Virus record (IMG/VR): IMGVR_UViG_3300036715_004485
Coordinates: 1 to 37,216 of that record
Length of the DNA: 37,216 nt
Origin: a virus
Direction: 5' to 3' (one strand)
Shown piece by piece: positions 22,877-26,819 of the stretch; the first letter of the stretch is position 1; each line of letters opens with the position of its first letter. Position numbers and translations under genes: made by a program. The notes beneath the pieces are model-generated. The model did no database searches and was not told the origin of the DNA. It saw nothing but the letters and a program-made list of their open reading frames with translations.

Positions 22877-24343
22877 ATGGCATTGTCCTTTAATTCAATT
22901 CCGGTTTCGATCCGTGTTCCCGGTGTCTATGTCGAGATCGACAACACCCGCGCAATTCCCGGCATTACCGGCCTGCCGACCAAGATCCTGGTCATCGGCC
23001 AGCGCCTGACATCGGGCACGGTCCAAGCCTTGACGCCGCAGCTGATCACCAGCCCGGACCAGGCGACGGCCTATTTTGGTATCGGCTCGCAACTGAGCCA
23101 TATGCTGGCGGCGCTGATCAAGGCCAACAACTATACCGAGACATGGGCCATCGCGCTGGATGACAACGCAGCCGGTGCCCTGGCCACGGGGACGCTGACC
23201 TTTACCGGCGCGCCGACAGCCAATGGGACATTGAACCTCTACATCGCCGGCCGCCTGGTCCAGGTCGCGATCACCACCGGCCAGACCGTGGCGCAGATTG
23301 CCACTGCCGTCGTCGCCGCCATTACCGCAATGACCAGCCTGCCGGTCACCGCGTCGGCCGCCGCCGGCGTCGTCACCATCACCGCGCGGCATAAAGGTGA
23401 GTGCGGCAACTATATCGACCTCCGGCATTCCTATAACATTGGGGAAGCACTGCCGGCGGGTCTCGCCTTGGCCGTGGTCGCCATGTCGGCCGGCACCGGC
23501 AACCCGCTGGTTCAGCCGGTTCTCGATCTGATCGGCGACGCCTGGTACACGGATATTGTCAACCCGTACACCGACGCCACCAACCTGACCGCGTATGAAA
23601 CCAAGATGGACACGAATTTCGGTCCGTTGAAGATGATCGATAGTCATGTCTGGACGGCGGCCAGCGGTACGCTCTCGACCCTGACGACATTGGGCCTCAC
23701 GCGCAACTCGTCGCATGTCACCATGATCGGTGCCAAGAATTCCCCGACGCCGCCTTGGGAATGGGCCGCCTGCCTTGCCGGTGTCGCCGCCTATTACCTA
23801 TCGATCGATCCGGCGCGGCCGATCCAGACCTTGACCTTGCCGGGGCTGCTGCCGCCGGCCGTGGTCGACCGCTTCACTTTGCAGGAACGCAACATCATGT
23901 TGTCATCCGGCGTTGCCACCTGGCGCGTCGATGGCGGCGGCAATGTCGTGATCGAGCGGTCAATCACCATGTACCGCACCAATGCCTTCCTGGCGGCCGA
24001 TGCCAGCTTCCTGGATGTCGAGACCATGCGGACCTTGGCCCTGCTGCGCTACGACCTCCGCAACTTCATTGCGCTCAAGTATCCGCGCCACAAGCTGGCA
24101 CGTGATGGCACCAACTTCTCACGTGGCCAGGCGGTGGTGACACCGAAGACCCTGCGGGGCGAAATCATCGCCCGGTTCAAGCTATGGGAAGACCAGGGCC
24201 TGGCCGAAGATATCGAGCAATTCAAGAACGATATCATTGTCGAGATCGACCCTAACGACCCCAACCGGGTCAATGCGCTGGTGCCGCCCAACATCGTCAA
24301 CCAGCTCCGCATCTTCGCGGGTCGCATTCAGTTCCGTCTCTGA
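22877..24343 (+). CDS. Contractile tail sheath protein (Mu gpL-like)
   Basis: The 488-residue sheath subunit. The N-terminus SIPVSIRVPGVYVEIDNTRAIPGITGLPTKILVIGQRL is typical. An inserted strand-rich domain lies at about 110-190 (TANGTLNLYIAGRLVQVAIT). The conserved core and C-terminal handshake region includes PWEWAACLAGVAAYYLSIDPARP, and RNFIALKYPRHKLARDGT, ending IVNQLRIFAGRIQFRL. It makes the phage a myovirus with contractile injection. Confidence 0.95.
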   Translation: MALSFNSIPVSIRVPGVYVEIDNTRAIPGITGLPTKILVIGQRLTSGTVQALTPQLITSPDQATAYFGIGSQLSHMLAALIKANNYTETWAIALDDNAAGALATGTLTFTGAPTANGTLNLYIAGRLVQVAITTGQTVAQIATAVVAAITAMTSLPVTASAAAGVVTITARHKGECGNYIDLRHSYNIGEALPAGLALAVVAMSAGTGNPLVQPVLDLIGDAWYTDIVNPYTDATNLTAYETKMDTNFGPLKMIDSHVWTAASGTLSTLTTLGLTRNSSHVTMIGAKNSPTPPWEWAACLAGVAAYYLSIDPARPIQTLTLPGLLPPAVVDRFTLQERNIMLSSGVATWRVDGGGNVVIERSITMYRTNAFLAADASFLDVETMRTLALLRYDLRNFIALKYPRHKLARDGTNFSRGQAVVTPKTLRGEIIARFKLWEDQGLAEDIEQFKNDIIVEIDPNDPNRVNALVPPNIVNQLRIFAGRIQFRL

Positions 24344-24356
24344 GGAGAAGCGTTAG

Positions 24357-24731
24357 ATGGCAATCACTGGCAATAAGTTCCTTGGTCGGGCGACGATCCG
24401 TGTCGACGGCCAGGTCTGGGAGACCGCACCAGGCGCAACGCTGGATGTCGGCGGCACCAAGCGCAATCCCGTCATCGTTGGCAAGAAGGTCGGCTTTGCC
24501 GAGGAGACGGCGCCGGGCACCCTGGTATGTGAAACCGCCTTGATGACCGGCATGACGCTGGCCGACCTGCGCAATGTGACGGGTGCCACCATCATCTTCG
24601 AAGCGGATACCGGCCAATCCTTCGTGATCAGCAATGCTTTCATCACTGTCCCGCCAACCATGAAGGACGGTGCCGGCGGCAACGTGTCGCTCGACTTCGC
24701 GGGCGATCCGGCGCAGGAGATGGCGGCATGA
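24357..24731 (+). CDS. Tail tube protein (Mu gpM-like)
   Basis: A 124-residue inner-tube subunit with an all-beta pattern: GRATIRVDGQVWETAPGATLDVGG, then ETALMTGMTLADLRNVTGATIIFEADTGQSFVISNAF and DGAGGNVSLDFAGDPAQEM. Its length and order (sheath, tube, chaperone) match Mu gpM. Its stop overlaps the chaperone start (ATGA). Confidence 0.93.
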   Translation: MAITGNKFLGRATIRVDGQVWETAPGATLDVGGTKRNPVIVGKKVGFAEETAPGTLVCETALMTGMTLADLRNVTGATIIFEADTGQSFVISNAFITVPPTMKDGAGGNVSLDFAGDPAQEMAA

Positions 24732-25087
24732 GGACCGTCTTATTGACCCAGCCGTTCGAACTCAAGGCCAAGGACAGCGATGACGTCCTGGAGAAGATCG
24801 ACAAGGTCATGGTTAGGCCGCTTAAAACCGGCGACTTGCTCAGCGCGATCGACGGTGCCGGCGGCAAGGATAACCCCGGCACCTTGCTTCGCCACCTCAC
24901 ATCGCGCGCGACGCGCCTGACCCTGAACCAGATCGACAATCTGTGTCTCGAAGACGGCATGGCAATCTTTGATGCGGTCGAAAGTTTTTTGCCGGCTTCC
25001 CTGCGGACTGGAGCGGATGCCTCGAAGTCATCGCAGGGACCTTTGGATACCCCAACGATGTCGACGACTGGGGACCAGGACGCCTGA
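24728..25087 (+). CDS. Tail assembly chaperone, zero-frame product (gp41-like)
   Basis: A 119-residue chaperone: TVLLTQPFELKAKDSDDVLEKIDKVMVRPLKTGDLL is the family N-terminus, with helical middle LLRHLTSRATRLTLNQIDNLCLEDGMAIFDAVESF. The last 30 residues in this frame are a low-complexity Ser/Thr/Asp tail, as expected when the conserved continuation lies in another frame. Ribosomes that shift -1 at 24985-24991 would instead make a 140-residue fusion ending at 25149. The normal and extended forms together load tail tube subunits on the tape measure. Confidence 0.92.
   Translation: MRTVLLTQPFELKAKDSDDVLEKIDKVMVRPLKTGDLLSAIDGAGGKDNPGTLLRHLTSRATRLTLNQIDNLCLEDGMAIFDAVESFLPASLRTGADASKSSQGPLDTPTMSTTGDQDA
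24985..25039 (+). promoter_or_regulatory. Predicted -1 programmed ribosomal frameshift signal
   Basis: The heptamer T TTT TTG (24985-24991) fits X XXY YYZ with codons TTT and TTG in the zero frame. Six bases later a stem-loop begins: TCCCTGCG (24998-25005) pairs with CGCAGGGA (25032-25039), and GACT (25006-25009) pairs with AGTC (25026-25029) across a 2-base bulge, giving 12 bp in total. Spacing, stem and location in the tail chaperone gene match known phage frameshift sites. Confidence 0.85.
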
Positions 25088-25149
25088 CGTTCTGGTTTAA
25101 CCGGGCAAAGAACTGGCAACGACGCCTCAGAGAAGGTTCCGACACGTGA
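24991..25149 (+). CDS. Frameshift extension of tail assembly chaperone (gp42-like part)
   Basis: In the -1 frame after the slippery site 52 codons are open: AGFPADWSGCLEVIAGTFGYP, then NDVDDWGPGRLTFWFNRAKNW and QRRLREGSDT, stop at 25147-25149. Its Trp and aromatic content and charged end look like genuine protein, unlike the zero-frame tail. There is no start codon of its own, so it is only reachable by frameshifting. The stop overlaps the tape-measure GTG (GTGA), coupling translation. Confidence 0.82.
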   Translation, partial: AGFPADWSGCLEVIAGTFGYPNDVDDWGPGRLTFWFNRAKNWQRRLREGSDT

Positions 25150-26819
25150 AGCTGAGTGTCATCCTTGAAGCCATCGACCGCGTCACCAAACCGGTCAATG
25201 CAATCGCAAAGAGGGTCAGCCGCTTGAATGGTGAGCTGGGGCTCGCCCGCATTGCCGATGCCGGTAAGAAGGTCGGCATGGCCTTTGGCAATGCTGCCAA
25301 AGAAGCCCGCGAAATGGCAACCCGGGTGACGGCGGCGGTTGGCATCGTTGGCGGTGGTTTCTTCGCATTGATCAAAGGTGCGGCCGACGCCGGTTCATCG
25401 ATTTCCGTGCTGGCACAAAAGACCGGCCTTTCCAATACCGCCTTTCAACACCTGGCCTATGCCGCCAAGACCGCGAATGTCAGTCAGGACGATTTTGTCG
25501 CCGGGTTGGAGGAATTGCACAAAAAGGTGGTCGCCGCTAATGCCGGCAATCATCAGATGGCGGCGAATTTCAAAAGGATCGGCGTCAGCCTGCGGGATGC
25601 CCATGGCAAGGCCAAGCCCACTGAGGAGGTCTTTGCCCAGATCGCCGATCACTTCCAGAAGATGCCGGAGGGTGTCAAGAAATCGGCGCTGCATCTCGCG
25701 ATCTTCAATGACGCAGCGGGCAAGTTGCTGCCGCTCGTCAACCAGGGTTCGGTGGGCCTCAATCAGCTTGCAGCCGAAAGTGACAATCTCGGCAACACGC
25801 TCTCAGACAACACCGTCGCTGCGTCGAATGATGCCAATGACAGTTTCGGTCGGCTGACAACCTCACTCTTGGGTGTTCGCAATTCCATCGCTGCGGCGCT
25901 GCTGCCAGCCCTGAAGCCGCTGCTTGACCAGCTCACCTTGTGGATCGCTGCCCACCGCGAGTTAATCGCCGCCAAGATCGTCGACTTCATCCAGAGCATT
26001 CCGGCTAAGGTCAAACAATTGACCGACGCGGTCACTGACCTGACCGCCCGCTTCTCTGGCGTCGTCGCTGTTATCAAGGCGGTGATCGATTGGATCGGGC
26101 CGATGAACGCCGCCTTGATCGTGGTCGCTGGATTGATCGCCGGCAAGTTTCTGATCGCGTTGGCGCAGCTGACTTTGGCTTTCGGCGGGCTTGGCGGTGC
26201 CATGGGGAAAACCACGCTTGCTATTGCGCGCTTTGCCCTCGGTCCCCTGATCGAAACCGCGGTTGCCTTGTTCCAGGCCCTGCGCGCCGGCATTGGCATC
26301 GTGGAGGCGTTCAACATCGCCCTTGCGGCCAATCCGATCGGCCTTGTGATAACGGCCATTGCCGCCTTGGCGGCCGCCGTTTACCTGATCTATAGCAATT
26401 GGGGCACGATCGGCCCCTGGTTTGACAAGCTGTGGTCGGGCATTAAAGACACCTTTAACAGCTTCGTTGCCTGGGTCGAAAAGACATTTGTTGATGCCAT
26501 CTTGGGGTCGTTCCAGCGGATCTCGGACTTCATCAGCCCGATCGTCGAAAGCCTGAAGACAGCCATTGATCTTGGCAACAAAGCGCTAGGCTTTGTGACC
26601 GGCGGCAGTTCCGCCACGCCATCTGTCGCACACGGAAGAGGTGCCGGATCGCTCGGTGCTGCCAATGTCCGACCCGGATCTGGTGCGGCAAAGGTCGACC
26701 TGGGTGGAAAGCTGGACATTAACTTTAGGTATGGCCAGCCGCCGGTTGTTCAGGCGCAGCCGAATGACAACCGCGTCGACTACCGGATCGATAGCGGCCG
26801 CGTGATGCATGACCGCTAA
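25146..26819 (+). CDS. Tail tape measure protein
   Basis: A 557-residue protein starting with GTG 25146, overlapping the stop of the frameshifted chaperone. The N-terminal helices (SVILEAIDRVTKPVNAIAKRVSRLNGEL) precede a conserved SISVLAQKTGLSNTAFQHLAYAAKTANVSQDDF region. Hydrophobic segments lie around 310-400 (AALIVVAGLIAGKFLIALAQL, GLVITAIAALAAAVYLIYS). The C-terminal region is Gly/Ser/Ala-rich. It sets tail length and probably acts in membrane passage. It is rather short for a myovirus tape measure, suggesting a short tail. Confidence 0.93.
   Translation: MKLSVILEAIDRVTKPVNAIAKRVSRLNGELGLARIADAGKKVGMAFGNAAKEAREMATRVTAAVGIVGGGFFALIKGAADAGSSISVLAQKTGLSNTAFQHLAYAAKTANVSQDDFVAGLEELHKKVVAANAGNHQMAANFKRIGVSLRDAHGKAKPTEEVFAQIADHFQKMPEGVKKSALHLAIFNDAAGKLLPLVNQGSVGLNQLAAESDNLGNTLSDNTVAASNDANDSFGRLTTSLLGVRNSIAAALLPALKPLLDQLTLWIAAHRELIAAKIVDFIQSIPAKVKQLTDAVTDLTARFSGVVAVIKAVIDWIGPMNAALIVVAGLIAGKFLIALAQLTLAFGGLGGAMGKTTLAIARFALGPLIETAVALFQALRAGIGIVEAFNIALAANPIGLVITAIAALAAAVYLIYSNWGTIGPWFDKLWSGIKDTFNSFVAWVEKTFVDAILGSFQRISDFISPIVESLKTAIDLGNKALGFVTGGSSATPSVAHGRGAGSLGAANVRPGSGAAKVDLGGKLDINFRYGQPPVVQAQPNDNRVDYRIDSGRVMHDR

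Follow-up and report, generated by a model that had tools for sequence, protein, structure and literature searches.

A predicted P2 gpE/E'-type tail chaperone gene with a -1 frameshift site in a Mu-type contractile tail

Does a short gene lying between a tail tube gene and a tape-measure gene produce one protein or two, and, if two, by which kind of ribosomal shift and in which chaperone family? This question is raised by a virus record of 37,216 bases, analysed over its whole length and referred to here as the window, which contains genes for a Mu-type transposase, sheath, tail tube, tape measure, baseplate hub and baseplate J (Table 1). According to the data described below, the gene is very probably a tail assembly chaperone gene of the P2 E/E+E' type, which would make a 119-aa product and, as a minority product, a 140-aa -1 fusion generated at T TTT TTG.

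Table 1. Features of the chaperone region and its neighbours in the window.
Feature	Coordinates	Strand	Evidence
Mu-type tail sheath, bait for finding relatives	22877..24343	+	phrog_165, E 1.1e-194
Upstream tail tube protein, whose stop shares ATGA with the start of the chaperone	24357..24731	+	PF10618, E 3.9e-28
Zero-frame product (119 aa) of the tail assembly chaperone gene	24728..25087	+	ORF between tube and tape measure; residues 1-88 before the slip
Slippery heptamer T TTT TTG, zero-frame phase	24985..24991	+	T TTT TTN in phase at 42 loci, counting the window
Extension in the -1 frame, 52 aa plus stop, predicted E'/T-like domain AGFPADW...TFWFNRAKNWQRR	24991..25149	+	HMM from relatives; no in-frame start
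Possible stimulatory stem-loop, 8 bp + 2-nt bulge + 4 bp	24998..25039	+	MFE -23.9 kcal/mol, z -2.16
Tail tape measure protein, GTG start overlaps the -1 stop	25146..26819	+	phrog_8462, E 5.9e-52

The geometry of the site is that of a -1 shift. The zero frame reads ...GAA AGT TTT TTG CCG... around the slip, placing the heptamer in the X XXY YYZ phase, and a spacer of 6 nt (24992-24997) separates it from the stem. The open -1 frame covers 24973 to 25149, which gives 52 residues past the slip, and its TGA stop (25147-25149) lies inside the GTGA in which the tape-measure GTG starts at 25146. In all these respects, including the 12-bp stem with its 2-base bulge, which folds as 8 + 4 bp, the description given by a first-pass annotation of this DNA was accurate. 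No ATG, GTG or TTG occurs in the open -1 stretch, and this frame is therefore unreachable by an ordinary start. Heptamers of the form X XXY YYZ are found at 13 of the 9563 in-phase positions of the forward genes of the window, with the run of six T residues (T6) only at 24985-24991.

The stem-loop had also been put forward as part of the signal. It is a real fold at the place where it had been described, while its role as a signal was not established, since it is common only to the near twin L004, in which the stem is kept in an altered form, and none is reported in P2. In the 59-nt context used for the values in Table 1, 5 of 200 shuffled sequences folded as well, and z is -1.65 in a context of 55 nt and -0.99 in one of 99 nt; other folds are present in L006 and in L033-L036. 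A generally conserved stimulatory stem-loop was likewise considered, and is unsupported by the folding downstream of the site in 43 genes, where the mean z is -0.83 and six genes lie below -2. The stem-loop of the window exceeds chance mildly at most and is probably optional; it may help slippage, without being a shared requirement.

A tblastn search of 50,697 phage records with the fusion protein gave no matches, and relatives were therefore gathered by means of the sheath, in a search that drew on IMG/VR contigs, two metagenome-assembled genomes and named phages. At 41 further loci, whose Mu-type sheaths are related to that of the window, T TTT TTN precedes a -1 extension of about 46-63 aa. 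These extensions almost always stop at the tape-measure start or a few bases from it, and they have in common a motif like FPxDW...FxFxPSEL...LxFWxxxA. The in-phase heptamer of the 42 chaperone loci, including that of the window, is TTTTTTG in 25 cases, TTTTTTC in 10, TTTTTTT in five and TTTTTTA in two. Past the slip, the zero frame continues for 31 codons in the window and for 31-34 in its clade (L004, L006 and L033-L036), the usual length being about nine. Conservation of both the heptamer and the downstream frame was the check that the first-pass annotation had named for its -1 programmed frameshift in a tail chaperone, and its presence in 41 other loci makes this proposal well supported.

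Other loci hold variants of this arrangement. In four -1-type chaperones (L007, 2190-2224; L041, 5130-5162; L058, 3470-3500; L064, 2610-2637), the canonical heptamer is replaced by TTT ATG, as in TCT TTT ATG, and these sites perhaps work by P-site slippage on T TTT alone. In Paraburkholderia phage IPK (L013, 6148-6363), an E'-like domain is found in the -1 frame with only 10 nt of zero-frame overlap, and the chaperone locus shows no recognizable slippery heptamer. A slip site was also sought, and not found, in the chaperone gene of Burkholderia phage KS10 (L025, 5970-6576), in agreement with the KS10 paper (PMC2628397).

The same set of relatives bears on whether the fusion might arise from slippage of the RNA polymerase on T6 instead of slippage of the ribosome, given that the run is homopolymeric and that one added U would lead to the same frame. 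For slippage by a bacterial RNA polymerase, six is a short run, and most relatives keep exactly six. Moreover, the run is held in a strict codon phase: within the last 60 codons of 60 chaperone genes in relatives, T6 occurs 27 times in the slip phase and three times in another phase (27/30), while the tube and tape-measure genes of the relatives contain only 15 such runs in 37,822 codons, and these favour no phase. In further relatives, the same -1 domain follows C CCT TTN or sites that are less canonical, and transcriptional slippage would not be expected at mixed heptamers of the former kind. Transcriptional slippage is accordingly a very unlikely source of the fusion.

With ribosomal slippage as the preferred reading, the next point is the family to which the chaperone belongs. 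Among the aligned members, the N-domain matches PF10109 (Phage_TAC_7) in 18 of 19, and the extension matches PF06528 (Phage_P2_GpE) in nine of 19. In profile comparisons with hhalign, the N-domain profile of the family aligns with P2 gpE (96%, E 4.7e-9), and its extension profile, the window included, aligns with P2 E' (97%, E 1.3e-10). Against PF10109, the N-domain of the window scores worse than E 0.01, its extension taken alone is below the Pfam threshold for PF06528, and Pfam and PHROG scans of its two domains returned nothing but a weak match to phrog_166. The place assigned to the window in the P2 E/E' family is thus a prediction that rests on its relatives and not on Pfam matches of its own.

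The P2 record annotates a -1 frameshift in E+E', and the sequence at the site is GGT TTT TTG; slippage at TTTTTTG in P2, and its conservation in P2-like Burkholderia phages, are described in PMC3091744. The window and P2 share an identical heptamer in the same phase, directly upstream of the tape-measure gene, and their N-domains and E' domains are homologous at the family level. They differ in the length of the zero frame after the slip, which is 31 codons in the window and six in P2, and in the stem-loop, which is present in the window, whereas PMC3091744 states that no hairpin was found after the P2 slip site. In addition, the sheath and tube of the window are Mu-type, unlike those of P2. 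Judged from its sequence relationships, the gene encodes a diverged chaperone of the P2 gpE/E' type within a contractile tail of Mu type, and is an ordinary case of something already known.

The Mu-like neighbourhood (transposase, sheath, baseplate) could nevertheless suggest that the chaperone is a relative of Mu gp41 and that the ribosome slips by -2, the more so as the record of Mu itself annotates a verified -2 shift. The two chaperones indeed occupy the same position in a homologous tail module, and both are broadly of the Phage_TAC_7 type. However, Mu and its close relatives hold the unrelated slip sequence CGG GGG CGA and a conserved domain in the -2 frame, belonging to the Gp41_Mu family, and GGGGGCGA is absent from the chaperone gene of the window. 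The Gp41_Mu profile (PF23746) matches 13 of 13 aligned -2-type chaperones and none of the 19 aligned -1-type ones, and it gives no match in the window at E values up to 0.1. The -2/+1 frame of the window stops at 25100, 46 nt short of the tape measure, and has no homologue. The conserved domain lies in the -1 frame, which refutes a Mu-type -2 shift and leaves this explanation with next to no probability. The comparison with gp41/gp42-type chaperones suggested in the first-pass annotation likewise needs correcting: the gene is not a Mu gp41-type chaperone gene in which -1 has replaced -2, for it has no Gp41_Mu match and its relatives match PF10109 and PF06528.

Returning to the P2-type reading, three lines of evidence show that its -1 frame encodes a protein. 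HMMs were built from 40 relatives, with neither the window nor its near twin L004 among them, and were searched against the 714 six-frame segments of the window. The extension HMM matches only the segment 24973-25146 (E 5.6e-13), and when the nearest clade is also removed this segment still matches at E 1.1e-6, everything else being at 0.3 or worse; the N-domain HMM matches only the segment 24533-25084 (E 7.3e-9). Substitutions between L033 and L035 fall on the third position of zero-frame codons in 17 of 25 cases before the heptamer, and after it on the third position of -1-frame codons in nine of 13 cases within the overlap and in five of six beyond it. Between the window and L004, the third zero-frame position accounts for 27 of 41 substitutions before the heptamer, and the third -1-frame position for six of eight beyond the zero-frame stop, the overlap showing no bias. 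When the window and L004 are aligned with the L033/L035 group, scores of 55-61 are obtained for the -1 peptide, and scores between -2 and 11, which is chance level, for the overlapping zero-frame tail; within L033-L036, the zero-frame tail after the slip drifts, while the -1 frame is constrained. Such substitutions show that, in close relative pairs, the zero frame is under constraint up to the heptamer and the -1 frame after it. The description of the -1 frame as protein-like in the first-pass annotation is therefore sound in view of the HMM of the relatives, the substitution pattern and the peptide alignment. That the segment is a gene of its own with independent initiation, or else a decayed remnant, with a sequencing or mutational frameshift, is hardly credible, for although a recognizable domain in the -1 frame is also what a broken gene would show, that frame has no ATG, GTG or TTG, and the two-frame layout recurs in independent contigs at large divergence with the -1 frame under purifying selection.

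The -1 shift had been considered noteworthy for the reason that Mu uses a -2 shift. This does not hold for a member of the P2 E/E' family that has the same TTTTTTG as P2, and among relatives with Mu-type sheaths -1 recoding outnumbers -2 recoding: 56 of 71 such loci are -1 and 15 are -2 (CGG GGG CGA type), in a sample picked by sheath similarity to the window, which is not a census, and with 14 of the -1 labels, at loci lacking a T6 site, assigned by inspection of the frames. Closely related Mu-type tails may differ in mode, one being -1 (P2 E-type) and the other -2 (Mu gp41-type), as in the pairs L020/L026, L044/L099 and L096/L111. On a tree of the 71 sheaths, the mode changes at least seven times, six of these changes being forced by well-supported branches, and 13.8 changes are expected with shuffled labels. 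This alternation probably reflects exchange of the chaperone gene, which is simpler than conversion of the slip site because Gp41_Mu is matched by all 13 of the -2-type chaperones and by none of the 19 -1-type ones. On balance, and with modest confidence, it may be proposed that the recoding mode of the chaperone has been switched many times by gene exchange in homologous Mu-type tails, and that the lineage of the window also keeps an unusually long overlap (31-34 codons) whose zero-frame part drifts freely.

The P2-type reading is based on the in-phase heptamer, the absence of a separate start, the homology and selection in the -1 frame, and the gene order. The long zero-frame overlap and the sub-threshold Pfam scores of the window's own two domains count against it. 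From the former features we infer the slippage itself, its rate, the ratio of the products and the chaperone roles. One gene would thus probably yield a short and a long helper protein. Most ribosomes would read 24728-25087 and produce the 119-aa chaperone in excess, whereas a minority would shift backwards by one base at T TTT TTG, producing the 140-aa fusion, with the extra domain supplied by the -1 frame. The junction peptide would be ...AVESFLAGFPADW if the second slip codon is read before the shift, and F would replace L if the slip comes first.

A comparable system is gpG/gpGT of phage lambda, which has a different heptamer (G GGA AAG) and belongs to a siphophage tail; it is likened to the window by arrangement, namely two-product -1 slippage in the same gene order, and not by sequence homology. 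PMC5009743 describes two products made from one start by -1 slippage, encoded between the major tail and tape-measure genes. By analogy with this system, the N-domain shared by both products would coat the tape measure, and the extra domain would recruit tail-tube subunits.

The window adds to the known tail chaperones a diverged and well-supported two-product example that is missed by single-sequence Pfam searches, and it shows annotators where the frames are to be joined in Mu-type tail modules. With -1 and -2 modes alternating between tails that are close relatives, it can be tested whether such a tail accepts either type of chaperone.
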